DNA of 51,200 bases from Spirochaetota bacterium (GTDB lineage: Bacteria; Spirochaetota; Spirochaetia; Treponematales; Rectinemataceae): NCBI GenBank assembly GCA_029778945.1, contig JAKPBN010000487.1, positions 1-51,200 on the forward strand, given 5' to 3'. Under the pieces are notes generated by a model. It did not search any database. It worked only from the letters and a program-made list of their open reading frames with translations, and was not told where the DNA came from. Shown here one piece after another: positions 13,407 to 48,525 of the stretch (positions are counted from its first letter, which is position 1; every line of letters starts with the position of its first letter). Position numbers and translations under genes: made by a program.

Positions 13407-14285
13407 ATGAGCCGCAGGAAAAGCAGGGAAGAGCTCCTCTACCAGGTCCTGGTCAATGCCTATCTCCTCGCCACCCTCCTCGTGGTGGTGATTCCCCTTA
13501 TGCGGGTGATCACCATGTCGGTCTCCCCGATCAAGTCGGGCCAGGAATACCTCGGGGGCCTCCTCATCCCCTTCTCCCGCTGGAGCGCCGCCGCCTACAG
13601 CCAGCTCCTCTCCCACCCGGCCTTCCTCTCCTCCTTGAGGAATTCCGTCCTGATCACCGTCCTGGGCACGACGGTCAACCTCCTCCTCACGATCCCCTTG
13701 GCCTATGTCCTCTCGATCAAGACCCTGCCGGCGCGCCGCTTCCTCAACGCCTTTATCCTCCTGCCCTTCCTCTTCAACCCCGGCCTCATCCCCTCCTACC
13801 TCGTCGTGACGGGCCTCGGGCTCACCGATACCTATCTGGCGGTGATCCTCCCCGGGGCGGTGAGCGTCTACAACGCCTTTGTGATGCGGGGCTTCTTCGA
13901 GGGCATCCCCGATGACTTCAAGGAGGCGGCCAGGATCGACGGGGCCGGGGAGTTCTATATCCTAAGGCGGATCATCCTCCCCCTGTCCAAGCCCATTATC
14001 CTCACAATTGGACTGTTCTATGGGGTGAGCCACTGGAACGAGTTCTTCGCCCCACTCCTCTACCTCAACGACACCAAGCTCCAGCCCCTTCCCGTCCTCC
14101 TCCGGAACATCCTCCTCGCGGCCAATGTCAACGAGTATGTCGATTTCGACGCGATGAGCGCGGCCCCGGTCTCGGCCCTCAAGGCGGCCTCGGTCGTCCT
14201 CACCACCCTTCCCATGGTCATCGTCTATCCCTGGATCCAGAAACACTTCACGAAGGGAACCCTCGTGGGTGGCATAAAAGGTTAG
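13407..14285 (+). CDS. Oligosaccharide ABC transporter permease, YtcP/LplC type
   Basis: A 292-residue partner permease. Six membrane segments are visible, the first at about residues 14-36 (LVNAYLLATLLVVVIPLMRV). The EAA loop is EAARIDGAGEFYILRRIILP. The C-terminus ends HFTKGTLVGGIKG, a near-invariant YtcP/LplC ending. It begins 11 bases after the LplB-type gene with GGGGGGCCGGA before its ATG, and is followed 10 bases later by the binding-protein gene. It forms the second half of the membrane channel. Confidence 0.92.
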   Translation: MSRRKSREELLYQVLVNAYLLATLLVVVIPLMRVITMSVSPIKSGQEYLGGLLIPFSRWSAAAYSQLLSHPAFLSSLRNSVLITVLGTTVNLLLTIPLAYVLSIKTLPARRFLNAFILLPFLFNPGLIPSYLVVTGLGLTDTYLAVILPGAVSVYNAFVMRGFFEGIPDDFKEAARIDGAGEFYILRRIILPLSKPIILTIGLFYGVSHWNEFFAPLLYLNDTKLQPLPVLLRNILLAANVNEYVDFDAMSAAPVSALKAASVVLTTLPMVIVYPWIQKHFTKGTLVGGIKG

Positions 14286-14295
14286 GAGGCAATCT

Positions 14296-15858: not shown

Positions 15859-15874
15859 GCAGGACCAGGCCCTG

Positions 15875-17038: not shown

Positions 17039-18351
17039 GCGAAACAACCAATGCAAAAGAAATGTCCCCTCGTGGCGGCTTTGATCCCCGGGACTTTGGG
17101 GCTGCCGCGGACGGGGTCCACCGGGACGGGGCGGCCATCCAGGCTGCCCTGGACGCCGCGGGCCGGGCCGGGGGAGGCCTCGTGGTCCTCGCAGGCGGGA
17201 CCTTCCTTTCCGCGGCCCTCGTGATGCATAGCGGGGTGGAGCTCCGGGTCGAGCGGGGGGCGAGGCTCCTGGCCAGCGAGGACGCCGCCGACTACCCCCT
17301 CGTGGAGGCCCGCTGGGAGGGCTCGACCCGGACTGTCCATGCGTCCTTCATCTCGGGCCGGAACCTGCGGAACCTTGCCCTCTCCGGCGGCGGGACGATC
17401 GATGGCCGGGGCGGGGTCTGGTGGAGGGCCTTCAGGGAAGGCCGCCTCGCGGCCCCCCGGCCCCGGCTCATCTCGTTTGAGGACTGCGAGGATGTGGTTG
17501 TCCAGGACTTGCTCCTCCTGGACTCTCCCTCATGGACCCTCAACCCCGTGCGCTGCCGGGGGGTCGTGGCCCGGGGCGTCCGGATCCGCAACCCGCCGAA
17601 CTCCCCCAACACCGACGGGATCAACCCCGACTCCTGCCAGTCCGTCCTGATCGAGGGCTGCCGGATCAGCTCCGGGGACGACTGCATCACCCTCAAGTCG
17701 GGCAGCGAGGCCGAGGCCCCCGAGCTCAGGGCCCCCTGCCGGGACATCGTGATCGCCAACTGCATCCTCGAGGCCGGCCATGGCGGCCTTGTCGTGGGCA
17801 GCGAGATGTCCGGTGGAGTCTCCCGGGTTGTCGTGTCCAACTGTGTCTTCCGGGGGACGGACCGGGGCATCCGCGTCAAGTCTCGGCGGGGGAGGGGAGG
17901 CCTCGTCGAGGACCTCCGCCTCTCGAACCTGGTGATGGAAGGAGTCGCGGTCCCCTTGGCCATCAACCTGCGCTACCACTGCGGGGCCAAGGGCGATCCC
18001 CTCGTGGCCGACCGGGGGCCACGGCCCCAGGGGCCCGGGACCCCCAGGGTCAGGGGGATCAGCATCGAGGGCCTCACCGCCCGGGGGGCCACTACGGCGG
18101 CGGCCTGGATCGAGGGCCTCCCGGAATCGCCTATCCTGGACCTGGCCTTGAGGGATTGCTTTTTTGGGCTGGCCCCCGGCTCCGCCCTGGGCCCTGCCGC
18201 CGTGCCCGAGATGGCCGATGGCCTCGAGGCCATCGCCGGGGCGGGCTTCCTGGCCAGGCATGTGCGGGGACTTGGGCTTTCCGGGGTGAGGGTCGAGGGC
18301 CAGGCCGGTCCGGCCTTTGGCCTCGAGGCCTGCGACCTAGGCGGCTCTTGA
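17035..18351 (+). CDS. GH28 polygalacturonase-type hydrolase
   Basis: A 438-residue right-handed beta-helix hydrolase. All four GH28 active-site motifs are present: PNTDGINPDS (Asp194), SSGDDCITLKSG (Asp215/216), GHGGLVVGSEMSGG (His249) and RGIRVKS (Arg278-Lys282). The N-terminal FDPRDFGAAADGVHRDGAAI is the usual pectinase entry. Without a signal peptide it should be cytoplasmic, where it would cleave galacturonic acid from imported oligogalacturonides or rhamnogalacturonan fragments together with the GH105 enzyme. It is the last gene of the operon and ends three bases before the convergent YbeD-like gene. Confidence 0.92.
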   Translation: MSETTNAKEMSPRGGFDPRDFGAAADGVHRDGAAIQAALDAAGRAGGGLVVLAGGTFLSAALVMHSGVELRVERGARLLASEDAADYPLVEARWEGSTRTVHASFISGRNLRNLALSGGGTIDGRGGVWWRAFREGRLAAPRPRLISFEDCEDVVVQDLLLLDSPSWTLNPVRCRGVVARGVRIRNPPNSPNTDGINPDSCQSVLIEGCRISSGDDCITLKSGSEAEAPELRAPCRDIVIANCILEAGHGGLVVGSEMSGGVSRVVVSNCVFRGTDRGIRVKSRRGRGGLVEDLRLSNLVMEGVAVPLAINLRYHCGAKGDPLVADRGPRPQGPGTPRVRGISIEGLTARGATTAAAWIEGLPESPILDLALRDCFFGLAPGSALGPAAVPEMADGLEAIAGAGFLARHVRGLGLSGVRVEGQAGPAFGLEACDLGGS

Positions 18352-34227: not shown

Positions 34228-35268
34228 ATGAAACCAACGATCAGCATTATCGAAGTCGCCCGCCTCGCCGGGGTCTCGAAGTCCACCGTCTCCCGGGTCA
34301 TCAGCGACCGGGGGGGCTCGGTGAGCCCCAAGGCCCTGGACGCGGTCAACGCCGCCATCAAGGAGCTGGGCTATACCCGCAACGACCTGGCCGCGGGCTT
34401 CCGCACCCAGCGCAGCAATCTCATCCTCCTCATGGTGCCGGATATCGCCAATCCCTTCTGGTCCGAGATGGCCCGGGCGGCCCAGGACAGGCTCGAGGAC
34501 TCGGGCTATTCCGTCGTCGTGGGCAACACCGACTGGAGCGAGCAGAGGGAGTCCCGGTACTACGAGCTGGCCCGGTCCCGGCGCTTTGACGGCCTGATCC
34601 TCAACAGCGTGACCGACAATATCGCGGCCATCTCAGACATGGGCCTCCCCGCCGTCCTGATAGGCGAGCGGGCCCTGGTCCAGGACATAGACACCACGGG
34701 CACCGATACCCGGGTGGCGACCCGCACGGCCCTGGACTATCTCTGGGACACGGGACACCGGCGCATAGCCATAGCGACCACCGAGCATGGGAGCGAGCGC
34801 TTCCTTTCCCTGCGCCGGAAGACCCACGCGGACTTCCTGGCCGAGCGCGGCCTGGCCCCAGGCTCGGGCCTGGCCTTCTCGGTCAAGCTCTCCGAGGAGG
34901 GCGGCAGGGACCTTGTCCGGGAGGTCCTGGCCCTGCCGGACTGGAGGGCCAAGGTGGACTCCATCCTCTGCGGCAACGACCTTTTGGCCGTCTCGGCCAT
35001 CGCGGCCTTCCTCGAGGCAGGGGTCGTCCCGGGCCGGGACATCTCGATCGTGGGCATGGACGACATCCCCGCGGCGGCCCATTGCCGGCCGGGGCTCACC
35101 ACAATCCGCAAGCCCCGGTCCTTGATCGGGACCACGGCGGTGGACCTTCTCCTGGAGCGCTTGGGAAACCCCGAGCTCCCGGCCCGGTCGAGGCTTTACC
35201 CGGGGGAGCTGGTGGTCAGGGAGAGCGTAGCCGACAGGACTGGAAGCGCAAGGGAGGCAGGGGCATGA
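34228..35268 (+). CDS. LacI/GalR-family transcriptional regulator
   Basis: A 346-residue repressor. The N-terminal HTH is ISIIEVARLAGVSKSTVSRV, followed by the hinge LGYTRNDLAAGFRTQRSNLI. A ligand-binding domain spans about residues 60-335 (LMVPDIANPFWSEMARAAQD; GHRRIAIATTE; DSILCGNDLLAVSAI; SIVGMDDIPAAAHCRPGLTT). The ATG at 34228 was chosen because a longer in-frame TTG start coincides with the -35 box. The leader is very short and has no clear ribosome binding site. The two operators flanking its promoter imply autoregulation and control of the downstream genes, which it overlaps by ATGA. Confidence 0.93.
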   Translation: MKPTISIIEVARLAGVSKSTVSRVISDRGGSVSPKALDAVNAAIKELGYTRNDLAAGFRTQRSNLILLMVPDIANPFWSEMARAAQDRLEDSGYSVVVGNTDWSEQRESRYYELARSRRFDGLILNSVTDNIAAISDMGLPAVLIGERALVQDIDTTGTDTRVATRTALDYLWDTGHRRIAIATTEHGSERFLSLRRKTHADFLAERGLAPGSGLAFSVKLSEEGGRDLVREVLALPDWRAKVDSILCGNDLLAVSAIAAFLEAGVVPGRDISIVGMDDIPAAAHCRPGLTTIRKPRSLIGTTAVDLLLERLGNPELPARSRLYPGELVVRESVADRTGSAREAGA

Positions 35269-36188
35269 TAGCCGCGGCAAGAATACGAAAAGGGCCGGGC
35301 CTCCTGTCCCGGATAGGCCGGGACTGGTTCCTCTATGTCCTCCTCATCCCCGCCCTCTGCTATTTTACGGTCTTCCATATCCTCCCCATCCTGGGGATGA
35401 AGATGGCCTTCCAGGACTTCCGCCTCGTGGGGCCCAGCAAGTTCGTGGGACTCAAGCACTTTGGCATCCTCTTTTCCTCCCCGGCCTTCTACACGGTCCT
35501 CGCCAACACCCTCATCCTCTCGGCGATGAAGATCATCCTCTTCTTTCCCTTGCCCATCATCTTCGCCCTCATGGTCAACGAAGTCAGGGTCGGGGCCTTG
35601 CGCAAGCTCACCCAGGCCGTGGCCTACCTGCCGCACTTCCTGTCCTGGGTCGCCATAGCGGGGATCTGGATCGCCTTCCTCTCTCCCACCACGGGCGGGG
35701 CCAACCAGGCCCGGGGCTTCCTGGGCCTGCCGCCCCTGGACTTCATGACGAGCAAGGCCCACATCCGCTGGGTCCTCTTCGCCTCGGAGACCTGGAGGAG
35801 CCTGGGCTGGGACTCCATCATCTATCTGGCCGCCCTCATGCGGATCAGCCCCAGCCTCTACGAGTCGGCCGAGATGGATGGGGCCTCGGCGCCCCAGAAG
35901 ATGCTCTATATCACCCTGCCCGAGCTCGTCCCCACGATGGTGACGGTCTTCATCCTCAACCTGGGCTTCTTCATGAACGCCGGCTTCGACCAGGTCTTCA
36001 ACATGATGAACGACTCCGTGATCAGCGTGGTCGACATCCTCGATACCTATGTCTATAGGATAGGACTCGTCAATATGCAGTACTCCGTATCCACGGCGGC
36101 CAGCCTCTTCAAAGGCGTCATCGGACTCATCCTCATCCTGTCCACCCATGTCGCGGCCAAGAAGACCACGGGAAAGGGGCTTTGGTGA
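35265..36188 (+). CDS. Oligosaccharide ABC transporter permease, LplB type (second system)
   Basis: A 307-residue polytopic permease. TM1 at about 23-42 (FLYVLLIPALCYFTVFHI) leads to the LplB hallmark HILPILGMKMAFQDFRLVG. The EAA loop is ESAEMDGASAPQKMLYITLP. The ATG overlaps the LacI stop (ATGA) and has GGGAGG upstream; a longer frame lies inside the regulator gene. It is the first transporter gene of the cluster that also encodes citrate-lyase-like and ADP-ribosylglycohydrolase-like proteins. No ATPase is encoded nearby. Confidence 0.92.
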   Translation: MIAAARIRKGPGLLSRIGRDWFLYVLLIPALCYFTVFHILPILGMKMAFQDFRLVGPSKFVGLKHFGILFSSPAFYTVLANTLILSAMKIILFFPLPIIFALMVNEVRVGALRKLTQAVAYLPHFLSWVAIAGIWIAFLSPTTGGANQARGFLGLPPLDFMTSKAHIRWVLFASETWRSLGWDSIIYLAALMRISPSLYESAEMDGASAPQKMLYITLPELVPTMVTVFILNLGFFMNAGFDQVFNMMNDSVISVVDILDTYVYRIGLVNMQYSVSTAASLFKGVIGLILILSTHVAAKKTTGKGLW

Positions 36189-37087
36189 TGGGCCGCCGCG
36201 TGAGAGCTTCCCTCGGGGACAGGGTCTTCCGGGCCCTTATCATGGTTATCCTCCTGGCCATAGCGGCGATCATCCTCGTCCCCATCCTCAACCTCCTCGC
36301 CCTCTCCCTCTCCGACCCGAGGCGGGTGCCGGAGTTGTCGGGCCTGGATGTCCTCCCCAAGGGCTTCTCCCTCATCGTCTACAAGGTCCTGGCCGCCAAC
36401 CGCTTCTTCATGCAGTCCATCCTCAACTCGGTCTTCATCACCGTGGTGGGCACGCTGATCAACCTCGCGGCCACGGCCATGGCCGCCTACGCCCTGACCC
36501 GCCCCGGCCTGCCCGGGAAGCGCCTGTTCATGCTCATCGTCATCGTCATCATGGTCTTCGAGCCCGGGATAGTCCCGGAGTACCTCGTGGTCAAGAAGGT
36601 CGGCCTCATGAACTCCATGTGGGCCGTCATCCTCTACAAGGCCGTCAACGTCTACTATCTGATCATCCTCATGCGCTTCTTCGAGGAGGTCCCTCCCTCC
36701 TTCATCGAGGCCGCCCGGGTAGACGGGGCCGGCCATGGGACCATTCTCCGAAAAATCATGCTGCCCCTCTCCAAGTCGGCCATGGCGACCCTCGCCCTAT
36801 TCTACGGTGTTATGCATTGGAACGAGTATTTCCGGGCGAGCATCTACCTGAACGACCCCAACAAGTATCCCCTCCAGCTCATCCTGCGCCAGTTCGTGGT
36901 CCTGGACGACACCTCGGCCCTCATCGGCGCGGGAACCCTGTACAGCTATGACGAAGCCGCCCGCTTAAGCTACGCCGCCCTGAGGGCGGGGACGATAATT
37001 GTCTCCATTATACCGGTGCTCATGCTCTATCCCCTGATCCTGAAGTACTACACTCGCGGGGTCATGGAGGGTGGAGTCAAGGAATAG
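36188..37087 (+). CDS. Oligosaccharide ABC transporter permease, YtcP/LplC type (second system)
   Basis: A 299-residue partner permease with six membrane segments; the EAA loop is EAARVDGAGHGTILRKIMLP and the ending YYTRGVMEGGVKE is typical of YtcP/LplC. The ATG overlapping the upstream TGA was preferred over in-frame TTG and GTG codons just before it, because AAGGGG then lies seven bases upstream. It forms the channel with the preceding LplB-type protein. Confidence 0.92.
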   Translation: MGRRVRASLGDRVFRALIMVILLAIAAIILVPILNLLALSLSDPRRVPELSGLDVLPKGFSLIVYKVLAANRFFMQSILNSVFITVVGTLINLAATAMAAYALTRPGLPGKRLFMLIVIVIMVFEPGIVPEYLVVKKVGLMNSMWAVILYKAVNVYYLIILMRFFEEVPPSFIEAARVDGAGHGTILRKIMLPLSKSAMATLALFYGVMHWNEYFRASIYLNDPNKYPLQLILRQFVVLDDTSALIGAGTLYSYDEAARLSYAALRAGTIIVSIIPVLMLYPLILKYYTRGVMEGGVKE

Positions 37088-37101
37088 CGAGGAGGTCACC
37101 C

Positions 37102-38529
37102 GTGAAGATGCGAAGATTCGCCTGCGCGGTCCTGGTTCTGGTCTTTGCCCTGGCATGCCTGGGCGGACTCTCGGCCCAGCCCAAGGTCCGTTTCCTGATG
37201 AAGGATTTTGACGCCGATCCCAACATCGCCGCCTTTATCGACCTGGTCGAGAAGGGGATGGCCGCCGCCGGCACCCCGGTCAAGATCGAGGTCCTCAAGA
37301 CCCCGGCGGGCGACTATGCCCAGAAGGTCGCCCTCATGGTCATGTCCGGGGACATCCCCGACCTCATCTACTTCCAGGGCGGGGATGACAAGCTCTCCTC
37401 CCAGGGGGTCCTCGAGGACCTGACTCCCTATGTCGCCAAGTCCAAGTACATCAAGAGCCTCATGGACGCCCACAGCGCCACCCGGCTCGCCAACTACCCC
37501 TACCTCCTCTGGCTGGCCCCCCCCAGGGTCAGGGCTCCCGTGATGAGGAAGGACTGGTTCGAGTCCCTCCCCTCGGCCAAGGCCGTCCAGGCCAACCCCA
37601 CGGTCGACACCTGGTATGCCCTCTTCAAGGACCTGGTCGCCAAGAAGGGCGCCAAATTCGGCATCTCCATCACCGGCGCCACCAACGGCGTCGAGGAGCT
37701 CGACGCCATATTCGACGGGGCCTTTGGCAACACCTCCACCTGGATGAAGGGCGCCGACGGCAAGTGGGCCTATGCCAGGGTCTCGGCCAGCGAGAAGGCC
37801 AAGCTCGAGTTCTACGCCAAGCTCTACAAGGAAGGCCTCCTGGATCCTGAGTACCTGACCAAGAAGTGGGACTCCAAGGAGCAGGTCTTCTATGAGGGCA
37901 AGGCGGGAGTCATCCCCGGCGTGGCCCCCGGCTCGGTCGACGTCTACGCGAACAAGATGCAGAAGGCCCAGGGCACGGACATCGTGGCCCTCCCCCCCGC
38001 CAAGGGCAAGGCCCAGGGCCTCACGCCCTTTGTGGATGTGACCAAGGAGCCCCGGGGCTTCGCGATCTCCTCGACCTCGAAGGTCAAGGCCCAGGCCTTC
38101 GCCATCCTCGACTTCATGTGGAGCCCCGCGGGCCTCAAGCTCGCCAAGCTCGGCATCCCCGGCGTCCACTCCATCGACGACGGCAAGCAGTACGTCCTCA
38201 CCGACAAGTATCCTGAGTGGCCCATCGGCTGGTTCGGGGACTCCCTCAATGGCTTTAACCCCGACAAGCCCCTCTCCAGGCCCATCATGAACAAGTCGGC
38301 GATCGACGCCGGAGCCCTGGCCAAGAAGTACATGCTCCCGGACCACAACTTCCTCATGCCCGAGCAGTATGTGACCAACTGGGACGCCATGACCAACCTC
38401 TACAAGGAGTATGTGGCGGACATCGTGACCGGCAAGAAGCCCATCTCCGCCTTCGACGAGTTTGTCGACAAGTGGAACAAGGCCGGCGGCGTCGACGTGA
38501 CCAAGTACGCCAACACCGTCCTCAAGTAG
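37102..38529 (+). CDS. Extracellular oligosaccharide-binding protein (second LplB/YtcP system)
   Basis: A 475-residue family-1 solute-binding protein. Signal peptide at residues 1-25 (FACAVLVLVFALACLGGLSA), cleaved probably before QPK; the Cys at 19 is not in a good lipobox. The hallmark YAQKVALMVMSGDIPDLIYF appears near residue 72. Family members bind oligosaccharides; the ligand cannot be read from sequence. The start is GTG with GGAGG six bases upstream. It is followed by element C and then the ADP-ribosylglycohydrolase-like gene. Confidence 0.9.
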   Translation: MKMRRFACAVLVLVFALACLGGLSAQPKVRFLMKDFDADPNIAAFIDLVEKGMAAAGTPVKIEVLKTPAGDYAQKVALMVMSGDIPDLIYFQGGDDKLSSQGVLEDLTPYVAKSKYIKSLMDAHSATRLANYPYLLWLAPPRVRAPVMRKDWFESLPSAKAVQANPTVDTWYALFKDLVAKKGAKFGISITGATNGVEELDAIFDGAFGNTSTWMKGADGKWAYARVSASEKAKLEFYAKLYKEGLLDPEYLTKKWDSKEQVFYEGKAGVIPGVAPGSVDVYANKMQKAQGTDIVALPPAKGKAQGLTPFVDVTKEPRGFAISSTSKVKAQAFAILDFMWSPAGLKLAKLGIPGVHSIDDGKQYVLTDKYPEWPIGWFGDSLNGFNPDKPLSRPIMNKSAIDAGALAKKYMLPDHNFLMPEQYVTNWDAMTNLYKEYVADIVTGKKPISAFDEFVDKWNKAGGVDVTKYANTVLK

Positions 38530-38551
38530 AGAGAAGACATCTAGCTACGGA

Positions 38552-38707
38552 GCCACAGAGGCACAGAGACACAGAGACACAGAAGGGAGAATAGGAAGAG
38601 AAGGATTTTATGTTGAGAGTTAGGATGAGGTGAGATCACCCTTTCCAGACTTAGCTTTCATCAATCCTCCCTGTGTCCTCTGTGGCTAAACTCTGTGTCT
38701 CTGTGGT
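38552..38707 (+). repeat. Interspersed inverted-repeat element (copy C)
   Basis: The left arm starts GCCACAGAG (38552-38560) and continues with CACAGAG units. The right side has CTCTGTGGC (38678-38686) and a second CTCTGTGTCTCTGTGG (38691-38706). The arms can fold into a long hairpin around an AT-richer centre. It lacks the GCCGAAGGC core of copies A and D. It sits 23 bases after a binding-protein stop. Confidence 0.8.
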
Positions 38708-38759
38708 TGCATTTTCCCTTTTTATCATTTTGTACTAATTGTCGGATTATGGAGTTGAC

Positions 38760-40880
38760 ATGGCCATCCAGGCGGACTATCTCGAGCGAGTGTATGCGGG
38801 TTTCCTTGGCAAGAACGTGGGCATCAGGCTTGGCGCCCCCGTCGAGCCTGCCATCTGGACCTACGAGCGGATCCGGGAGATCTACGGGGACGTGAAGGGC
38901 TATCTCAAGCCCTGGCGCAATTTCGCCGCCGATGACGACGCCAATGGACCGGTCTTCTTTGTCCGCCCCCTCCTCGAGGGGGATCCGACGGCTGAGCTCA
39001 GGCCCCTCGATGTGGAGAAGGCCTGGCTCGAGTACAGCCGGGAAGGGGTGGGCATGTTCTGGTGGGGGGGCTATGGCCGCTCGACCGAGCACACGGCCTA
39101 CCTCAACATCAAGTCGGGCATCCATGCCCCCGAGTCCGGCTCCATCGCGCGCAACGGGGCCGTGGTCGCCGAGCAGATCGGCGGCCAGATCTTTATCGAC
39201 ACCTGGGGCCTCGTCTGGCCCCGCCGGCCCGACAAGGCCGCCCACTATGCGGCCACCGCCGCCTCGGTCTCCCACGACGGGGATGGCCTCGAGGGCGCCC
39301 GCTTTATCGCTGCCTGCATCGCCGCCGCCTTTGAAGAGCAGACGGTCGCCTCCGTGGTCCAGAAAGGCCTGGCCCAGCTGACTCCAGGCTCGACCTACGA
39401 GGCGGTGGCCAAGGCCGTGATCGCCTTTCACGCCAAGGCCCCCGGGGATTGGCGGGCCTGCCAGGAATACCTGATCGCCGAATGGGGCTACGACCGCTAC
39501 CCCGGCCTCTGCCACATGATCCCCAACGCCGGGGTCTGCGTCCTCGCCCTCCTCTACGGCGAGGGCAGCTTTGCCCGGACCGTGGAGATCGCCACCATGT
39601 GCGGCTGGGACACGGACTGCAATGCCGGCAACGTGGGCTGCATCGCCGGGGTCCTCTACGGCCTGTCATCGATTCCGGCGCATTACCGGGATCCCATCAA
39701 CGATGGAATAGTCCTGTCGGGCATCTCCGGCAGCCTCAATATCCTCGATATTCCCACCTTTTGCCGCCGCCTTGCCGCCGTGGGCTATCGCCTGGCCGGT
39801 GAGGCCGTCCCTTCCGGCCTGGCCGCCGCCCTGGCCTCGGGGGATGGGGAAAGGGCCTTCAACTTTGACTTCGCCCTCCCGGGCTCGACCCACAACCTCC
39901 GCGTATCGGATCCGGCCAACTTTGCCGTCGTCCATCGGCCGGGGGAGGGCTCGGATGGCGGAAACGCCCTGGAGTTCCGCTTCGACCGCCTCCTCCGGGA
40001 GGCCACGGGCACCCTCTTCTACAAGCCCTACTACAAGAGATCGGACTTTGACGATGAGCGCTACAGCCCGACCTTCGCCCCCACCGTCAGGCCGGGGATG
40101 GAGGTCCGCATCGTCTTCCGCCTCGAGAGCTGGGAGGGCCAGAAGATCGGGGTCGAAGGCTATGCCCGGTCCAGCGCCACCGGCGCGATAATTCCCGCCT
40201 CGGCCATGGTCTTCCCCCGGCCCGGGGATGTCCAGGTCCTGGAATTCACCGTGCCCGAGGTCGGCGGCGCCCAGGTCGACGAGCTGGGGCTCAGGATCAT
40301 GGGCTTTACCGGGGCCGGCAAGCGGGACTCGGGCCGCCTCCTCGTGGACAGCTTCCATATAGGCGGTAAGGCGCGTTATACGATTGATATGGCTCGCCAG
40401 TCCGTCGACTTTGGCTGCGTGACGCCCTTTTCCCATGACCACGGCTCCTGGGCCCTCGAGGGCGGACGCCTGCGCCTCATGAGCCACGAGGCCGCGGCCT
40501 CCTATACGGGCGGCCATGGGGTGGGGGACCAGAGGATCAAGGCCAGGCTCAGCCCACTGGCTGGCCACAGCCACCTTCTGGGTCTGCGATGCAAGGGCGC
40601 GATGAGCGGCTACTTTGCCGGTTTCGATGCCCCTGGCCGGGTCGCCATCTACCGCAAGGATTTTGGCGTCACGCGCCTGGCCGAGGGACCCTGTGCCTGG
40701 GCCTTGGGTGGGGACTACGAGCTTTCCTTCGAGGCGATCGGGGACAGGCTTGTCCTCGCCCTGGACGGCAAGCCCGTCCTGGAGGCTAGGGACCAGGCCC
40801 ATGCCGAGGGCATGGTGGGCTGCGGCTGCCTTGGTCCTGCCCGGGCCCTCTATGGGCCTTTCCAGGTGGAGGAGCTTTGA
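38760..40880 (+). CDS. ADP-ribosylglycohydrolase-family protein with C-terminal beta-sandwich region
   Basis: A 706-residue protein without a signal peptide. Residues 1-340 have the ARH fold: ERVYAGFLGKNVGIRLGAPV, NFAADDDANGPVF, ETVA-like MCGWDTDCNAGNVGCIAGVL. In typical ARHs the first metal motif is G-D-A-x-G; here that Asp is lost (GIRLGAPVE), while the DDD and DTDCN motifs remain, so activity may be altered. Residues about 360-706 are unrelated and look like two beta-sandwich (carbohydrate-binding or LamG-like) modules. ATG with GGAG six bases upstream was preferred over an upstream TTG. Its stop overlaps the CitDE start (TGATG). A ribosyl- or other glycosidase in this sugar operon is likely. 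Confidence 0.82.
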   Translation: MAIQADYLERVYAGFLGKNVGIRLGAPVEPAIWTYERIREIYGDVKGYLKPWRNFAADDDANGPVFFVRPLLEGDPTAELRPLDVEKAWLEYSREGVGMFWWGGYGRSTEHTAYLNIKSGIHAPESGSIARNGAVVAEQIGGQIFIDTWGLVWPRRPDKAAHYAATAASVSHDGDGLEGARFIAACIAAAFEEQTVASVVQKGLAQLTPGSTYEAVAKAVIAFHAKAPGDWRACQEYLIAEWGYDRYPGLCHMIPNAGVCVLALLYGEGSFARTVEIATMCGWDTDCNAGNVGCIAGVLYGLSSIPAHYRDPINDGIVLSGISGSLNILDIPTFCRRLAAVGYRLAGEAVPSGLAAALASGDGERAFNFDFALPGSTHNLRVSDPANFAVVHRPGEGSDGGNALEFRFDRLLREATGTLFYKPYYKRSDFDDERYSPTFAPTVRPGMEVRIVFRLESWEGQKIGVEGYARSSATGAIIPASAMVFPRPGDVQVLEFTVPEVGGAQVDELGLRIMGFTGAGKRDSGRLLVDSFHIGGKARYTIDMARQSVDFGCVTPFSHDHGSWALEGGRLRLMSHEAAASYTGGHGVGDQRIKARLSPLAGHSHLLGLRCKGAMSGYFAGFDAPGRVAIYRKDFGVTRLAEGPCAWALGGDYELSFEAIGDRLVLALDGKPVLEARDQAHAEGMVGCGCLGPARALYGPFQVEEL

Positions 40881-42112
40881 TGGAGGAGTCGCCGGGCGGG
40901 GGCGCCAGCTTTTCCGCCGGCACCCGGTCCAAGGGTGACTGCCTCGTCTCCTGGCGGCCCGGCAAGGACGGGCTAAGGCTCTGCCTTGAGTCGTCCGTAG
41001 CCCCCCTTTTCGGGCGGCTTATCCGGGAGACCGCGGCCGCCGAGGCCCATCGCCTTGGGGCAGGGGGCGAGCTGTCCATCTTCGATGACGGGGCCCTGGA
41101 CTATGTGGTGGCCGCCAGGGTTGAGGCGGCCCTGAGGGCCGGGGGCCTCCAGGCTCCGCTCCACGGCGTTCCCTCCGGCCCTCGGTCTTGCCCTCAGCTC
41201 AGCCCCGAGGTCCTGGCGGACCGGAAGTCCCGGCCCAGGCGCTCGCGCCTCTATATACCGGGCAACCAGCCCGAGTTGGCCATCAACTCGGGGCTTTTCC
41301 GCGCCGACTGCATCCTCCTCGACCTGGAGGACTCGGTGGCCCTGGACCGTAAGACCGAGGCGAGGATACACCTCAGGCGCCTCCTGGCCTGTCATCGCTC
41401 TTTCCTTCGCGATTCCGAGATAGCCGTCAGGGTCAATCCCCTGGCCTCTCCGGCGGGACTGGCCGATCTTGCGGAGCTCGTGCCGGTCAGGCCAGAGGTC
41501 CTCGTCCTGCCCAAGTGCGAGTCCGCCGAGGATGTCCGGGCCTGGGACAGGGAAGTCGGCCGCCTCGAGGCCCAGGCCGGCCTTCCTGAGGGGGGCATTC
41601 TCTTTATGCCCCTCGTGGAGACGGCCGTGGGCCTCAGCCGGGCCACCCAGATCGCCGCCGCGAGTCCGCGCAACGTGGCCCTCTGCTTTGGGGCCGAGGA
41701 CTACCGCCGGGACCTGGGGGTCGAGGCCGGCCCCGCCGAGGAGGAGACCGCCGTGGCCCGGGGCCTGGTGGTCCTGGCCGCGCGGGCGGCGGGCATCGAG
41801 GCCCAGGACTCGGTCTTTTCCCGGATCGAGGACGAGGCAGGACTTGAGGCCTCGGCCCGTCGGGCCAGGGCCCTGGGCTTCCAGGGCAAGGGCATCCTCC
41901 ACCCCGGCCAGATCGAAACTGTGCATCGCGTCTTCTCACCCAGCCCGGCCGAGATCGCCGGGGCGAGGAGGGTGGTGGAGGCCCTTGCGAGGGCCGAGGC
42001 CGAGGGGCGCGGCGTGGCTTCCCTCGATGGGCTTATGATAGACGCCCCGGTCGCGGCCCGGGCCAGGCGGGTCCTGGCCATGGCCGGATCCCTAGGCAGG
42101 AACAAGGCATGA
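40880..42112 (+). CDS. CitD-CitE fusion: citrate lyase acyl carrier domain plus beta-subunit (aldolase) domain
   Basis: A 410-residue protein joining two citrate lyase subunits. Residues about 10-95 match CitD, the acyl carrier: AGTRSKGDCLV, LESSVAPLFGRLIRET, FDDGALDYVVAARVEAAL. In CitD the prosthetic group is carried by Ser in AGTLES; here the Ser is one position earlier (AGTRS) and Lys occupies the usual place. Residues about 120-400 are CitE/HpcH aldolase: RSRLYIPGNQPELAINSG, ADCILLDLEDSVALDRKTEA, IAVRVNPL, VLPKCESAEDV, CFGAEDYRRDLGV and GILHPGQIETVHRVF; metal-ligand Glu and Asp are retained. It overlaps CitF by ATGA. It would cleave a citryl- or related acyl-thioester to acetyl-carrier plus an oxoacid. 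Confidence 0.88.
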   Translation: MEESPGGGASFSAGTRSKGDCLVSWRPGKDGLRLCLESSVAPLFGRLIRETAAAEAHRLGAGGELSIFDDGALDYVVAARVEAALRAGGLQAPLHGVPSGPRSCPQLSPEVLADRKSRPRRSRLYIPGNQPELAINSGLFRADCILLDLEDSVALDRKTEARIHLRRLLACHRSFLRDSEIAVRVNPLASPAGLADLAELVPVRPEVLVLPKCESAEDVRAWDREVGRLEAQAGLPEGGILFMPLVETAVGLSRATQIAAASPRNVALCFGAEDYRRDLGVEAGPAEEETAVARGLVVLAARAAGIEAQDSVFSRIEDEAGLEASARRARALGFQGKGILHPGQIETVHRVFSPSPAEIAGARRVVEALARAEAEGRGVASLDGLMIDAPVAARARRVLAMAGSLGRNKA

Positions 42113-43674
42113 GCAATATCAGCGGGACCGCGAATTCCCTAGGCAGGGCCATTCCCTCCTCAATAGATGGCCGGGCCTTTCGGCCCTACGCCACGGCCTT
42201 CTCTGGCCCCGGGGCCAGGGGACCGGGGCCGATGGCCCGGTCGGCCACGGCCAGGGGCAGGCCCTCCAAGCTCTGCCATACCTGGGACGAGGCCCTGGAT
42301 CGCCTCGAGCTCCACGACGGGATGACCATCTCCTTTCACCACCACCTAAGGGACGGCGACACGGTGGTGAATGAGGCGATAGCGCACATTGTGGCTCGAG
42401 GGATAGGCGATCTCGTGATAGCTCCCACGGCCCTTTTTCCGGTCCATGACAGCCTTGTGCCCCTGATCGAGTCCGGGGCCATAGCCCGGGTCGAGGGCTC
42501 GATGAACGGGGCCGTGGGCGCGGCCTGCACCCGGGGGGCCATGAGGGGCGTCTCCGTCCTCCGCTCCCATGGCGGACGCGGCCGGGCCATAGAGGCCGGG
42601 GACCTCCCCATAGACCTGGCCATCATCGCCGCCCCCTGCGCCGACCCCTTTGGCAACGCCAACGGGATCCACGGCCGCTCGGCCTGCGGACCCTTGACCT
42701 ATCCCGTCCCCGACTCCCTCTACGCCCGCCAGGTCCTCGTGGTCACCGATGGCCTCGTGCCCTTTCCCTGCAGCCCCTGGTCGATCCAGGGTGGGCGGGT
42801 GGACCAGGTCCTCGTGGTAGAATCCATTGGCGATCCCTCGCGGATAGCCTCGGGAACGACGAGGCTCACCCGAAGCCCCACCCAGCTCCTCATCGCCGAC
42901 CTGGCGGCCGCCTTCGCCGAGGCCACGGGGGTCCTCCACGAGGGCTTTTCCTTCCAGGCCGGGGCGGGGGGGATCTCCCTGGCCACGGTGGCGAGCCTAG
43001 GCAGGCTGATGCGGGCCCGGGGCATCAAGGCCTCCTTTGCCCATGGCGGGGCCACGGGCCTCCTCGTGGGTATGCTCGAGGAGGGAATCCTCGGCTCCAT
43101 CATCGACCTCCAAAGTTTTGACCTCGAGGCGGTGCGCTCCTGCCGGGACAATCCCCGGCACATCGAGTCCACGCCCTTTACCTCCTATGGGCCCCAGGGC
43201 GCGGGCTGCGTGGCCTCCATGCTCGACCTCGCGGTCCTGGGGGCCACCGAGGTCGACCTCGACTTTAACGTGAATGTGAACACCCACTCGGATGGCCGCC
43301 TTCTCCACGGGATCGGGGGCCACCAGGACGCCGCGGCCTCGGCCTCCTGCTGCATCGTGACCGTACCCTCCTTCCGCAAGCGGATACCCATCGTGAGGGA
43401 GAGGGTGACCACCGTGTCCTGCCCGGGCGAGGTGGTCGACGCCGTGGTGACCGAGAGGGGGATCGCCATAAACCCCCGGCGGGAGGACCTGCGTGAGCTG
43501 GCCCTTGGGGCCGGCCTCCCCGTGGTGGAGATGTCCCGCCTCCTGGAGGAGGTCAGGGCCATAACCGGAGTGCCCGACGAGCCCCGCTTTGGGGACAGGG
43601 TCGTTGCCCTTGTGGAGTGGCGGGACGGAAGCGTCCTAGATGTCGTGCGCGAGCTAGAGCCAGGTCAGAATTGA
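42109..43674 (+). CDS. citF: Citrate lyase alpha subunit (CitF)-like transferase
   Basis: A 521-residue protein close in length to E. coli CitF (about 510). Motifs along the whole length agree: LHDGMTISFHHHLRDGD, RSHGGRGRAIEAGDLPIDLA, CADPFGNANGIHGRSACG, EGFSFQAGAGGISLATVASL, NPRHIESTPF, DFNVNVNTHSDGRLLHGIGG and the C-terminal RVVALVEWRDGSVLDVVREL. CitF exchanges acetyl for citryl on the acyl carrier. With the CitD-CitE fusion it gives a full lyase. Homologous 4-hydroxybutyrate/acetate CoA-transferases are less likely given the CitD partner. No citC, citX, citG or citrate transporter gene is seen, so maturation genes must lie elsewhere. Confidence 0.9.
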   Translation: MSNISGTANSLGRAIPSSIDGRAFRPYATAFSGPGARGPGPMARSATARGRPSKLCHTWDEALDRLELHDGMTISFHHHLRDGDTVVNEAIAHIVARGIGDLVIAPTALFPVHDSLVPLIESGAIARVEGSMNGAVGAACTRGAMRGVSVLRSHGGRGRAIEAGDLPIDLAIIAAPCADPFGNANGIHGRSACGPLTYPVPDSLYARQVLVVTDGLVPFPCSPWSIQGGRVDQVLVVESIGDPSRIASGTTRLTRSPTQLLIADLAAAFAEATGVLHEGFSFQAGAGGISLATVASLGRLMRARGIKASFAHGGATGLLVGMLEEGILGSIIDLQSFDLEAVRSCRDNPRHIESTPFTSYGPQGAGCVASMLDLAVLGATEVDLDFNVNVNTHSDGRLLHGIGGHQDAAASASCCIVTVPSFRKRIPIVRERVTTVSCPGEVVDAVVTERGIAINPRREDLRELALGAGLPVVEMSRLLEEVRAITGVPDEPRFGDRVVALVEWRDGSVLDVVRELEPGQN

Positions 43675-43694
43675 TCCAAGGAAAGGATGGTGCC

Positions 43695-44666
43695 ATGAAC
43701 GAGGTTTTGAGTTACGAGTCCAGGGCCAAGGGATGCATGGCCGGCCTGGCCTGCGGGGACGCGATGGGAGACGTTGGGCGCAACCAGGCCTTCCGGGACC
43801 GCTATGGCATCGTGGACGACATGTATGACGGGGCCAAGAGCACCGACGACACCGAGTTTGCCGTCCTCACCGCGGTGACCCTCCTCGACTGCCAGGGCAG
43901 GCTGAGCACCGAGGCCCTGGTGGACTCCTGGAGGCGGCGCATCCTCGACCAGGGCGGCCTCTTTGACCGCGGCGGGGTCCCCCTCTACGGGGCCGTGGAG
44001 AACCTGCGGCGGGGCCTCCTGCCGCCCCTCTCGGGCCGCTACAACACCCTCAACATCGACGACGGGGCCGCCATGCGCATAGCTCCCGTGGGCATTGTGG
44101 CCAGGGACGAGGCCCACGCGGCCGAGCTCGCGGCCCTCGAGGCGAGCATCAGCCACTATGACGACGGCATCTACGCCGCCGTGGCCTGCGCCGTCGCGGT
44201 GAGGCTCTGCATGGATGGAGCCTCGGCGGTCGAGGCCGTGGCGGGGGCCATGCGCCACATCCCGGCCGATTCCTGGCTTGGGGTGACCATGGCCAGGATG
44301 CTCGACCTTGTGGCCGCAAAGCCCACGATCGAGGAGGCCTGGGCCGGCCTCCACAAGGATTTCTGGACTCCCCGGCACTCGATCAGCCCCGAGGCCATAC
44401 CCCAGGCCCTGGGGGTCTTCCTCCTCACCGGAGGGGACTTCCGCAAGGGCATGTTCTGGGCGAGCAACTTTGGCCGCGACGCGGACACGATAGCCGCCCT
44501 CGTGGGCGCCCTGTCCGGCGCACGCCAGGGCTACGGGGTCATACCCCCGGCCTGGGTTGAGAAAGTGCGCAGGCCCTCGGGGGTCTGCCTCAAGTTCGCC
44601 TCCGGCCACGACGTCGTCCAGCTGGGGACCGAGCTCGCGGCCCTGGCGGCAAGGCTTAAGTCCTAG
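43695..44666 (+). CDS. ADP-ribosylglycohydrolase-family protein (canonical motifs)
   Basis: A 323-residue cytoplasmic enzyme of the ARH/DraG family. All metal motifs are intact: GCMAGLACGDAMGDVGRN near residue 14, KSTDDTEFAVLTAV near 49, and NFGRDADTIAALVGALSGAR near 261, which bind the two Mg ions around the ribose. Family members remove ADP-ribose from Arg, Ser or other acceptors, or hydrolyse related ribosides. ATG follows AAGGATGGTGCC; the longer upstream frame is inside citF. It shares a CTAG as stop codon with the convergent beta-mannosidase gene. In this operon a metabolic riboside or cofactor substrate is as likely as a modified protein. Confidence 0.9.
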   Translation: MNEVLSYESRAKGCMAGLACGDAMGDVGRNQAFRDRYGIVDDMYDGAKSTDDTEFAVLTAVTLLDCQGRLSTEALVDSWRRRILDQGGLFDRGGVPLYGAVENLRRGLLPPLSGRYNTLNIDDGAAMRIAPVGIVARDEAHAAELAALEASISHYDDGIYAAVACAVAVRLCMDGASAVEAVAGAMRHIPADSWLGVTMARMLDLVAAKPTIEEAWAGLHKDFWTPRHSISPEAIPQALGVFLLTGGDFRKGMFWASNFGRDADTIAALVGALSGARQGYGVIPPAWVEKVRRPSGVCLKFASGHDVVQLGTELAALAARLKS

Positions 44667-47257
44667 GCGCAGCTAGACCAGAGGTCCCTGAGCCGCAGGG
44701 CCCGGGCCAGATCGGCCGCCGAGGGCATGGGACTTCCCGGGGCGGGCCGGAAGTCCACCAGGGCCTCCTCCCCGGCCCCCAGGTCAAAGCCCGAGTCGGA
44801 AAAGCGCCCCGCCATGGGCGATTCCGGGTCGAGCTCGAGGGCCACGAAAAAAGCCGGGGCCGCGGCCCGCAGGTGGATCCGGGGGCCCTCGGGCCCGTCC
44901 TTGACCCGGAACTCGAGGCCCGAGGGAGCCAGGGTGGCGGTTTTGGGCTCGGCCAGGAAGGCCCGGGCCAGGCGCCGCTCGACCCGGCCCCCGGAGGCGC
45001 GGGCCGTGAAGCTGGCCTCGAGGAAGGCCTGCCCGGGGCCCAGGGCGAGGCCGCTTCCCAGGAGGCCCTCCCCCTCGAGCCTCCTACTCCAGGGCCGGGC
45101 CACCGAGTCGGCGCCGACCCTGGCCTCGAGGCCCTCCTCCCAGAGACTCCGCCCGTCAAAGGCCTTCAAGGCCAGCCTGAGCTCCCCCTCGAGGGCCTCG
45201 GCCCTGTCGTTGATCAGCACCGCGGCAAGGGAGCCGTCCCTCATGATCAGGGCCAGGTGGAGGTCCTCGTAGAACCTCCTGGCCTCATGGTGGAGGAGCT
45301 TCCAGCCCCCGTCGTACTCGAGGCTCGACCAGGAGGCCACGGGCCAGACATCGTTCAGCTGCCAGTAGAGGGTCCCCATGCAGCGGGGCCGGAGGCTTCT
45401 CCAGAATTCCACCGCCGTCCGGATGGCCAGGGCCTGCTGGACCTGGGAGAGGTAGAGGGTCTCGGCGAAGCCCCGGGGCCGGCGGAAATAGCGCCCCATG
45501 GTCTCCAGGATCAGGCTGTTGCCCCGGGGATGGCGCTGGTGGGCCTCCATCACGGGGCTCGAGAAGTCCCGGTCTTTAGGTTTCGCATAACTTGCCACTA
45601 TCCTGGGGGAGGGCAGGGACTGGAAGCCGAACTCCGAGCAGAAGCGGGGCTCGACCTCGAGGTAGGCGGAGAAGGGCCTGCCCTCGTGCCAGACCGTCCA
45701 GTAGTGCATGTCCCCCCGGCTGTCCGAGTGCCAGTTGTCCGAGAAGTCCCCCGGCCCCGCCGATGGAGAAGAGGGCCACCAGGTCCGGTCCGGGTCGAGG
45801 GCGCGGATCACCCGGCCCAGGACCCCCTCGTTGAGGCGCTCATAGTCCTCGAGATAGCGCTCGGGGCTGTCCTTGCTCTCCTCGTACCAGGTGATGGCCC
45901 CCAGGGCCTCGTTGTTGCCGCACCAGAGGGCCAGGCTCGGATGGTCCTTGAGGCGCCTGACCTGGTGGGTGATCTCGGCCTCCACTCCGGCCAGGAAGTC
46001 CGGGCTCGAGGGGTAGAGGGCGCAGGAGAACATGCAGTCCTGCCAAAGGAGGATCCCGAGCTCGTCGCAAAGGCCGTAGAAGTCCTCGCTCTCGTAGCGG
46101 CCCCCTCCCCAGACCCTGAGCATGTTCATGTTCGCCGCCCGGGCCGAGCCGAGGAGGTCGGCGAGGCGGGCCCTGGTCCAGCGGGAGGGCAGGGAGTCCG
46201 CCGGGATCCAGTTGGCGCCCTTGGCAAAGATCTCCCGGCCGTTGACCCGGAACTTCATCGACTTGCCCCAGGCGTCCTCCTCGGCCACGACCTCGAGGCT
46301 GCGGAAGCCCAGGCGCTTTTTCTGGGTCCAGAGGAGCTCTGTCCCCGGTCCTGTTCCGGCTTCCCTTTCCCCGGATCCCGCCTGTGGCCGGAGGAGCCTG
46401 ACTTTCAAGTCATAGAGGGCCTGGCTTCCATAGCCCGCGGGGTTCCAGTCCTCGATCCCCTCAAGCTCGAGGGTGAGTAGGCAGCTCTGTACCCGGGAGG
46501 CTGCCCGGGGGGGCTCCAAGGCCAGGCTGGCCGTTTTCCCGGCTAGGCTCGCCTCGAGGATGGCCTTTCCCGAGCTCTGTCCCCCTTTTTTGGGGTTTGC
46601 CGGCCCGACCAGGTCGACCTGGACCTCCAGCTTCCACGCCCCGGGCCCCCGGCGGGTCATCCGGGTGCCCAGGTAGTCGAACCGAGGACCATTGTGGGCG
46701 GTCAGGCTGATTCCGTCGTAGATCCCCCCGGTCATCAGGCAGGGACCCCAATCCCAGCCGCCCATAAACTGGGCCTTCCTGAGGAGGTTGCGGTGGGGGG
46801 AGGTGACGGGGTACTGGGAATAGGGGATGGGGTAGGGGAGGCGGGCGGCGGCTTCGGCGGCGGCCTTTTCCGGGGAGGCGATCGTGACGGCGATCGTGTT
46901 TTTCCCTGCCCTGAGGAGGGGGCGGGCGTCGGCCCGGAAGGGGAAGAACATGTTGCGGCCCTCACCCAGGAGGGAGCCGTTGAGCTCGATGGTGGCCACG
47001 GTGTCGAGGACGAGGGCCTCCAGGAGGGCTTCCTCGCAGTCGAGGAAGCTCGGATCCAGGTCAAAATCCCTCTCGAGACGCCAGTCCTCCCGGCCTATCC
47101 ACTGGAGCTCAAGCTCGTTGCGCCCGGCATAGGGGTCGGGGATCTCTCCGGCGGCGAGGAGGGCGCTGAGGATGTCCCCGGGGACCTGCATAGGGCGCTG
47201 GGAGCCGTCCTTGACCCGCAGAAGTCTCCAATCGCCTTCGAGTCCGAGCCTTTCCAT
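44663..47257 (-). CDS. Beta-mannosidase, glycoside hydrolase family 2
   Basis: An 864-residue cytoplasmic enzyme that releases mannose from beta-1,4-manno-oligosaccharides. The N-terminal jelly-roll (LEGDWRLLRV) includes FMGGWDWGPCL. The catalytic barrel follows: FAKGANWIPADSLPSR, NMNMLRVWGGGRYES, acid/base Glu450 in LWCGNNEALG, nucleophile Glu542 in CSEFGFQSLP, and LYWQLNDVWPVASWSSL. C-terminal beta domains complete it. The ATG at 47257 was chosen because AAGGAGG lies six bases upstream; a longer frame would run into the divergent promoter. There is no signal peptide, so it should act on imported manno-oligosaccharides, probably supplied by the downstream ROK-linked transporter. Confidence 0.94.
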   Translation of the reverse strand: MERLGLEGDWRLLRVKDGSQRPMQVPGDILSALLAAGEIPDPYAGRNELELQWIGREDWRLERDFDLDPSFLDCEEALLEALVLDTVATIELNGSLLGEGRNMFFPFRADARPLLRAGKNTIAVTIASPEKAAAEAAARLPYPIPYSQYPVTSPHRNLLRKAQFMGGWDWGPCLMTGGIYDGISLTAHNGPRFDYLGTRMTRRGPGAWKLEVQVDLVGPANPKKGGQSSGKAILEASLAGKTASLALEPPRAASRVQSCLLTLELEGIEDWNPAGYGSQALYDLKVRLLRPQAGSGEREAGTGPGTELLWTQKKRLGFRSLEVVAEEDAWGKSMKFRVNGREIFAKGANWIPADSLPSRWTRARLADLLGSARAANMNMLRVWGGGRYESEDFYGLCDELGILLWQDCMFSCALYPSSPDFLAGVEAEITHQVRRLKDHPSLALWCGNNEALGAITWYEESKDSPERYLEDYERLNEGVLGRVIRALDPDRTWWPSSPSAGPGDFSDNWHSDSRGDMHYWTVWHEGRPFSAYLEVEPRFCSEFGFQSLPSPRIVASYAKPKDRDFSSPVMEAHQRHPRGNSLILETMGRYFRRPRGFAETLYLSQVQQALAIRTAVEFWRSLRPRCMGTLYWQLNDVWPVASWSSLEYDGGWKLLHHEARRFYEDLHLALIMRDGSLAAVLINDRAEALEGELRLALKAFDGRSLWEEGLEARVGADSVARPWSRRLEGEGLLGSGLALGPGQAFLEASFTARASGGRVERRLARAFLAEPKTATLAPSGLEFRVKDGPEGPRIHLRAAAPAFFVALELDPESPMAGRFSDSGFDLGAGEEALVDFRPAPGSPMPSAADLARALRLRDLWSSCA

Positions 47258-47314
47258 TCCTGCCTCCTTGGGACATCCCAGGCATATTCGGTCTTTTTCG
47301 TGGCTAAATCCAGA

Positions 47315-47343
47315 TTGACGGTCCAGTATACCCGTGCTATACC
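47315..47343 (+). promoter_or_regulatory. Promoter of the ROK regulator gene
   Basis: TTGACG, 17 bases, TATACC; an excellent sigma-70 match. The -10 lies in a further inverted repeat (GTATA-CCCGTGC-TATAC, 47326-47342), which also gives a TATACT on the minus strand, though no good -35 was seen for beta-mannosidase. Confidence 0.75.
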
Positions 47344-47347
47344 ATGA

Positions 47348-47368
47348 TTGGTTGAAAAGATCAACCAA
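47348..47368. promoter_or_regulatory. Candidate ROK operator
   Basis: TTGGTTGA-AAAGA-TCAACCAA is a perfect 8-bp inverted repeat covering the predicted start point of the ROK gene. It is well placed for autorepression and lies between the two divergent genes. Confidence 0.65.
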
Positions 47369-47382
47369 CCAGGGAGAGCGAC

Positions 47383-48525
47383 GTGGCGGGAACCAGAGAC
47401 CTAGGCCTGAGATCGGCTTCGCGCATCTTTCGATGCGTCTGGCGGAGCCCCAATATCAGCCGGGTTGAGATAGCCGACAAGCTGGGCCTCGACAAGTCCA
47501 CGGTGACCAACCAGGTCAATCGCCTGATCGATCTAGGCCTGGTGGCCGAAACCGAGGCCGGCGAGGCCTCGAGCCGGGGAGGGCGCCGCCCCATAGGCCT
47601 GGCGGTCCGCAAGAACTTTGGCCGCATCATCGGCATCGAGCTCCAGGTCGGGGGCTTTCACGCCTTGGCGGTCGATCTGTCCGGGGAGATCCTGGGGGAG
47701 CTCCAGGGCCCAGCCTCGATCAACAAGGACAGCTTCGCCTCGACCATCCTGGATATCGTGGACCGGGCCACGAGGGAGCTCTGTCCCGGCCCGGGCCCCC
47801 TCCTGGGCGTGGGTGTGGGCCTGGGCGGCCTCGTGGATCTCAAGTCCAGCCGGATCCGCTATTCCGTCCCCCTGGGCATCCGGGAGCCCCTGGACTTTGG
47901 CAAGACCGTGGCCTCGCGCCTCCCCATGCCCTGCTTTGTGGAAAACGACGCCAACTGCTGCGCCTGGGGCGAGCTGGCCTTTAACCGCTCCGAGGAGCTC
48001 CGGGACTTCCTCTTTGCCCTGGTGGAATACCGCCAGGACACGACCTCCCTGGGGACCTATGGCGGCATCGGGGTGGGCTTTGGGGTTGTCCATGGGGGCA
48101 AGGTCTACTCGGGCTCCCACGGCAACGCCGGGGAGTTCCGCTCAACCTTCTGCAAGGGCCGGGGGGACCTCCAGTTCTCCCTTCCCATGGACGAGCTCCG
48201 GCGGATGGACCGGGATCCCCGGGTCCTGGCCGCGGCGATGGAGGAGCTGGCCCGCAACATGGCCATGCTCGTCAACACGATGGACTTTGACCGGGTCTAT
48301 GTCGGAGGCGACATCGAGGAGCTCTTCGCGGACTTTCCCGCCCTCCTCAGGACCTGCCTGGAGGAAAACTGGATGTACCCCTCCCCCAAGGACGTGGATA
48401 TCCGCTACTCGAGTCTCAAGGGCCGGGCCGTGGCCTATGGGGCCGCGGGGATGATGCTGGATCGCCTCGTGGCCGAGCGCCTCCTCCCGGGCCTGGGTGG
48501 AAAGGCCGCGGCAGGGGGGGCCTAG
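47383..48525 (+). CDS. ROK-family transcriptional regulator (NagC/XylR type)
   Basis: A 380-residue regulator. An N-terminal winged HTH (ISRVEIADKLGLDKSTVTNQ at about residues 25-44) precedes a sugar-kinase-like ROK domain: GVGVGLGGLVDLKSSRI, PCFVENDANCCAWGEL, GIGVGFGVVHGGKVYSGSHG and a C-terminal VAYGAAGMMLDRL. The zinc-binding C-x-C-G-x-x-G-C-x-E motif of the family is replaced by FCKGRGDLQFS, so zinc is probably not bound, although the preceding His (GSHGNAGEF) is kept. GTG start with GGGAG upstream. It is likely the sensor for mannosides controlling the divergent beta-mannosidase and the following transporter. Confidence 0.92.
   Translation: MAGTRDLGLRSASRIFRCVWRSPNISRVEIADKLGLDKSTVTNQVNRLIDLGLVAETEAGEASSRGGRRPIGLAVRKNFGRIIGIELQVGGFHALAVDLSGEILGELQGPASINKDSFASTILDIVDRATRELCPGPGPLLGVGVGLGGLVDLKSSRIRYSVPLGIREPLDFGKTVASRLPMPCFVENDANCCAWGELAFNRSEELRDFLFALVEYRQDTTSLGTYGGIGVGFGVVHGGKVYSGSHGNAGEFRSTFCKGRGDLQFSLPMDELRRMDRDPRVLAAAMEELARNMAMLVNTMDFDRVYVGGDIEELFADFPALLRTCLEENWMYPSPKDVDIRYSSLKGRAVAYGAAGMMLDRLVAERLLPGLGGKAAAGGA

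Follow-up and report, generated by a model that had tools for sequence, protein, structure and literature searches.

A spirochete operon encoding two ADP-ribosylglycohydrolases and a citrate lyase variant likely serves catabolism of an imported 2-alkylmalate riboside

Why should relatives of citrate lyase be encoded between two ADP-ribosylglycohydrolases (ARHs), directly downstream of a sugar transporter? This question is raised by a stretch of 51,200 nucleotides from a Spirochaetota bacterium of the Rectinemataceae, hereafter referred to as the window, which represents contig C312 of a 4.07-Mb draft genome.

The ARH-Lyase Operon and Its Surroundings

Eight co-directional genes on the plus strand (34228 to 44666) encode, in order, LacI, LplB, YtcP, a binding protein, ARH1, CitDE, CitF, and ARH2. 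The LacI-family regulator (34228 to 35268; PF00356 and Peripla_BP_3), which also heads the conserved block in orthologs, is followed by an LplB-type ABC permease (35265 to 36188; PF00528), a YtcP-type ABC permease (36182 to 37087; PF00528), and an AlgQ-like extracellular solute-binding protein (37102 to 38529; PF13416), for which AlgQ1 was the top PDB sequence match (61.9 bits). Two PF00528 permeases together with an AlgQ-like PF13416 binding protein identify an LplB/YtcP oligosaccharide ABC importer. LplB shares 54 to 81% identity with its positional counterparts in the ARH loci of Spirochaetota and Bacillota, and YtcP is also conserved in ARH loci. After a gap of 230 bp come ARH1 (38760 to 40880; ATG start; PF03747, E 2e-50), a CitDE fusion (40880 to 42112) in which a CitD-like domain (PF06857) precedes a CitE-type lyase (PF03328), the alpha subunit of a CitF-like CoA/ACP transferase belonging to a divergent clade (42109 to 43674; PF04223, E 1e-135), and ARH2, a single-domain ADP-ribosylglycohydrolase (43695 to 44666; PF03747, E 5e-43). 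A preliminary description of this DNA had placed the last four genes in this order behind the regulator and transporter and had read them as tightly coupled; direct reading confirmed both the order, with all genes on the plus strand, and the coupling, which consists of a TGATG overlap (40878 to 40882), an ATGA overlap (42109 to 42112), and a 20-base gap (43675 to 43694). As also claimed there, the window showed neither a citrate transporter nor citC, citX, or citG.

Copies of the sequence CTCTGTGTCTCTGTGG repeat at 38553 to 38706 and also at 30723 and 50023 (six matches versus 0.05 expected). In the gap preceding ARH1 they partly form inverted arms, and the repeat is possibly a mobile or REP-like element. 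Just downstream of the operon (44663 to 48525) lie a convergent GH2 mannosidase-like gene of about 900 amino acids and a ROK regulator; among the relatives compared, G001 likewise has this pair close to the operon. Elsewhere in the window, a second binding-protein-dependent transporter with two PF00528 permeases is followed by GH88 and GH28 genes, constituting a pectin-type degradation operon (12481 to 18351), and an ABC ATPase, two BPD_transp_2 permeases, and a PNP_UDP_1 phosphorylase (95 to 5300) probably form a unit for nucleoside uptake and cleavage.

The Block Is Conserved in Spirochaetota

The window block is kept in 12 Spirochaetota loci. Searching the relatives' loci with the window genes (tblastn) gave a usual order of LacI, ARH2, LplB, YtcP, binding protein, ARH1, CitDE, CitF, with ARH2 in last position in L086 and L091, which are from the closest relatives, as in the window, and in second position in the other relatives. 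Coverage was near complete, in that almost every genome with window-type CitF contained the block, and was partial where contigs were short. Of 393 genomes sampled from the phylum, three had window-type CitF, each together with ARH1. The four genes ARH1, CitDE, CitF, and ARH2 are thus conserved together beside an LplB-type transporter and linked across genomes, with the canonical cit operon located elsewhere in the genome; the suggestion that they belong together survived this neighborhood search. Retention of the block in 12 loci excludes a chance grouping. At L038 (G001), the binding-protein gene was matched as two overlapping pieces (14202 to 15624), which suggests a frameshift or an assembly error.

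Different Lyases Occupy the Same Place Beside a Transporter-ARH Core

An ARH1 alignment, used to scan named genomes, returned 80 loci, which, having been gathered through ARH1, are not independent samples for counting. Twelve are the Spirochaetota loci with the window block, and the other 68 are almost all from Bacillota, including Paenibacillus, Cohnella, and Clostridium. The Bacillota core comprises LplB, YtcP, the binding protein, an ARH2-type protein, and ARH1, at about 50% identity and mostly without citrate lyase, and it is repeatedly accompanied by an AtuA-family gene, a ribokinase, and GntR, LacI, or AraC regulators. Lyase types excluded one another. CmlA, the AtuA-family protein, was the only type in 53 of the 80 loci and CitE-type lyase the only one in 18, no locus had both, and nine (L108, L112, L121, L126, L136, L148, L151, L153, and L156) had neither in view. 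Genomes harboring three of these nine (L121, L136, and L156) encode CitF or CitF fragments elsewhere.

A DUF4387 gene (CmlB) follows CmlA in all 53 CmlA loci. The top PDB matches of CmlA and CmlB were chains A and B of 9ERQ (also 9EVF), with E values of 1e-139 and 8e-26, respectively; these chains are named "citramalate lyase subunit A/B," and the function given to CmlA/CmlB here rests on that name, which is the depositor's. The CitE loci of Bacillota were themselves varied. A complete canonical set (CitD with Ser14, CitE, CitF, CitC, and CitXG) stands beside the ARHs in L107, CitE is accompanied by CitF in L109, L133, and L159, by an ADP-forming acyl-CoA synthetase in L149, and by a CaiB-type CoA transferase in L160. 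Within a further set of Spirochaetota, CmlA/CmlB were found in L221, L222, L225, and L226, and ADP-forming acyl-CoA synthetase genes in L223, L224, L227, and L228. In L224 and L227, the loci read closely, the synthetase genes are followed by a protein closest to the citryl-CoA lyase 6HXP or to NCBIfam citryl-CoA lyase models.

A tree built from 43 CitF sequences united the window type in a single, long-branched clade (support 100/100), and this clade, L107, and a clade of L109, L133, and L159 lay apart from each other. CitF was therefore recruited to the ARH core more than once, which renders a chance neighborhood unlikely. Each of the interchanged systems performs, or is named for, a cleavage in which a 2-alkylmalate or its thioester yields an acetyl unit and a 2-keto acid. 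Most simply, then, the ARH core would supply an acid of the 2-alkylmalate type.

That acid could be citrate, such that ribosyl-citrate would be degraded and the lyase would yield oxaloacetate. The window CitE and CitF are relatives of citrate lyase, the L107 CitE passes the TIGR01588 citE cut-off, and in L224 and L227 a citryl-CoA lyase-like variant takes the corresponding position, which speaks for citrate no less than for citramalate. However, the commonest replacement, CmlA/CmlB, is named a citramalate lyase, and the window CitE fails at equivalog level, scoring 245 bits for TIGR01588 against a cut-off of 443.4. We therefore regard citrate as an unlikely, albeit credible, identity of the acid. 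The NCBIfam citE and RipC scores favored no one substrate for the lyase. From its replacement by CmlA/CmlB, the window lyase probably cleaves citramalate, and our view that citramalate is the more likely of the two acids rests mainly on the depositor's name for CmlA/CmlB.

The ARHs Probably Act in a Riboside Pathway

Both ARHs combine the PF03747 fold with acidic metal-site motifs, which places them in the ADP-ribosylglycohydrolase superfamily. ARH1 consists of a catalytic domain of this fold followed by jelly-roll regions, the last of which is CBM66-like. In its AlphaFold model (mean pLDDT 87.7), the N-terminal domain matched ARH3 (TMt about 0.75) at a remote sequence identity of about 14%, and the last domain matched CBM66, the carbohydrate-binding module of a levanase (TMt 0.80 to 0.84, about 1.9 Å). 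The ARH1 motifs FAADDD and GWDTDC were conserved in 26 of 26 sequences, and the ARH2 motifs STDDTEF and GRDADTI were also conserved.

Ribokinase is encoded in 38 of the 53 CmlA loci and in all six CitE loci of Bacillota, and three of five cluster ribokinases tested scored over the TIGR02152 cut-off. In the window's genome, a ribokinase over the family cut-off is located on another contig; no ribokinase was found in the Rectinema-type clusters, and G012 had no good ribokinase match. ARH enzymes act on ribosyl bonds, cleaving those in the alpha configuration. This activity, together with the ribokinase genes in the Bacillota clusters and on another contig of the window's genome, makes ribosides the likeliest class of substrate.

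With ARH3 and DraG among the closest solved ARH structures, we also considered that the operon handles ADP-ribose or an NAD-derived molecule, the citrate lyase relative having an unrelated anaplerotic role. This is improbable, since the transporter, LacI, ribokinase, and CBM66-like domain all indicate carbohydrate use, the recurrent shared neighbors include no nucleotide-processing gene, and it would leave unexplained why only 2-alkylmalate-cleaving systems interchange at this position.

The Window Lyase Has Lost the Prosthetic-Group Serine

Every window-type row of the CitD alignment has Lys or Arg in the column of the prosthetic-group Ser14, where every canonical row has Ser; the window CitD domain thus lacks the defining residue of a canonical CitD carrier. 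The CitE domain has the predicted fold of CLYBL and of malyl-CoA/citramalyl-CoA lyases, and its catalytic positions R184, E247, D274, and D388 (protein numbering, via the CLYBL alignment) are invariant across 13 sequences. CitF, an alpha subunit by PF04223 (over the cut-off), scored 500.7 bits for TIGR01584, just below the cut-off of 501.45, and window-type CitF proteins were 63 to 78% identical to it, versus 47% or less for all other CitF. The Cys of a conserved "SDC" motif in CitD was considered as an alternative acyl carrier and rejected as not specific, since some canonical CitD share a Cys there.

Loss of Ser14 might be taken to mean that a paralogous citrate lyase is degenerating and came to lie in a sugar operon by chance. 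We judge this highly improbable, as the invariant CitE catalytic residues, the linkage retained in 12 loci, and the separate recruitment of CitF-type lyases to the same core in Bacillota all argue against it. Rather, the window lyase is a citrate lyase variant devoid of the cofactor arm and probably acts on CoA thioesters.

Cofactor Genes Track the Canonical Lyase

The same genome encodes a second, canonical lyase on other contigs, with citC, citE, citF, and citX on C75 and citG on C226; no ARH gene was found on C75, which carries the canonical citrate lyase operon. Among 16 genomes compared, CitX and CitG were detected in 10 of the 11 with canonical CitF, the sole exception being G022, in which the cit operon lies on a short contig that ends within CitC. 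The five genomes whose only lyase is of the window type (G006, G010, G019, G021, and G023; completeness 87 to 99%) yielded no CitX, CitG, or CitC; the window's own genome has all three, alongside its second, canonical lyase. The exact hypergeometric probability of this distribution of CitX across lyase types, with shared ancestry ignored, is 0.0014 (11/8008), or 0.0003 with G022 left out (10/10). The canonical cit operons of G001 (L049) and G012 (L050) adjoin genes that by eye resemble a tripartite tricarboxylate transporter, TctABC.

The first idea of the preliminary description, namely that the ARHs edit, recycle, or remove the phosphoribosyl-dephospho-CoA cofactor of citrate lyase, draws on the adjacency of ARH and cit genes and on the ribosyl-ribosyl bond that this cofactor offers to enzymes cleaving alpha-ribosyl bonds, but it is scarcely credible given that Ser14 is lost in all orthologs, the cofactor genes are absent from five genomes, CitD is missing from most ARH loci, which have CmlA/CmlB, and the contig with the canonical lyase operon is devoid of ARH. 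Instead, loss of Ser14, absence of the cofactor genes from five relatives, and a CitE whose residues and fold are those of CLYBL-type lyases together make free CoA the likeliest acyl carrier of the window lyase.

Discussion

Building on the observed gene content and its conservation, the exclusion between lyase types, the loss of Ser14, and the lack of cofactor genes in five relatives, we consider it likely that this operon directs the LacI-controlled catabolism of an imported riboside of a 2-alkylmalate, citramalate being the likeliest and citrate the next candidate, with CoA as the carrier. A ribose-containing conjugate would be taken up by the LplB/YtcP/AlgQ-like transporter, and its ribosyl bond or bonds would be hydrolyzed in the cytoplasm by ARH2 and by ARH1, which joins the ARH fold to a CBM66-like domain. 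The released ribose would pass to ribokinase, whose gene belongs to the cluster in many Bacillota and, in the window's genome, lies on another contig. CitF is predicted to activate the acid by exchange with acetyl-CoA, releasing acetate, and CitE to split the activated acid into acetyl-CoA and pyruvate, or oxaloacetate should the acid be citrate. Free CoA would probably serve as acyl carrier, the CitD domain being unable to carry the phosphoribosyl-dephospho-CoA arm. Substrate, ribosyl linkage, direction of flow, and use of CoA are all predictions of the model. The second idea of the preliminary description, that the ARHs free a citrate-like acid from an imported glycoside for the lyase to split, is strongly favored by the interchange of unrelated lyases beside the core and by the usual presence of ribokinase.

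In the openly available literature, we found no ribosyl-citramalate or ribosyl-citrate natural product and no report of this pathway or of clusters combining ARH with LplB, ribokinase, or citrate lyase. We likewise found no description of the class of metabolite that the model predicts, in which ribose is linked to citramalate or citrate, or of its catabolic route. We tentatively entertain the broader possibility, somewhat short of even, that such an undescribed compound is a widespread carbon source for bacteria of at least two phyla, Spirochaetota and Bacillota, that these ARHs are true carbohydrate glycosidases, and that the window-clade lyase operates on free CoA, having abandoned its covalent cofactor. 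This would give a sugar-degrading role to a superfamily known from ADP-ribose signaling. The window clade also represents a natural experiment in citrate lyase evolution, with a lineage from which the covalent CoA-like arm has disappeared, accompanied in five genomes by the genes for its synthesis and attachment. As several unrelated lyases replace one another beside the same core, the chemistry is directly testable.

The closest known systems each share part of this arrangement. Citrate lyase and clostridial citramalate lyase (CitD, CitE, and CitF with CitC, CitX, and CitG) likewise have a CitE-type lyase, a CitF transferase, and a CitD-fold domain, and copies of CitDEF/CitCXG in methylaspartate clusters of Clostridia have been proposed to be citramalate lyase (PMC4682846). 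Unlike these, the window CitD is fused to CitE and is without the prosthetic-group serine, CitC, CitX, and CitG are not needed in five genomes with the window type, and the lyase genes share their operon with those for a sugar transporter and two ARHs. CmlA/CmlB (PDB 9ERQ and 9EVF) occupy the equivalent slot in most relatives and so probably catalyze an equivalent reaction, but they belong to another family than CitE/CitF (AtuA and DUF4387 by Pfam) and are not present in the window. ARH3 and DraG have the fold and acidic metal-site motifs of the window ARHs, whereas the latter are encoded in a carbohydrate-uptake operon, with ribokinase adjacent in many relatives, and ARH1 bears jelly-roll and CBM66-like domains, with no sign of protein ADP-ribosylation. 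Finally, CLYBL and the CitE-like citramalyl-CoA and malyl-CoA lyases have the CitE fold, the catalytic residues, and a CoA thioester substrate, the last of which is presumed for the window lyase; in the window, however, CitE is fused to a CitD-like domain and is paired with CitF rather than with another CoA transferase or a synthetase.
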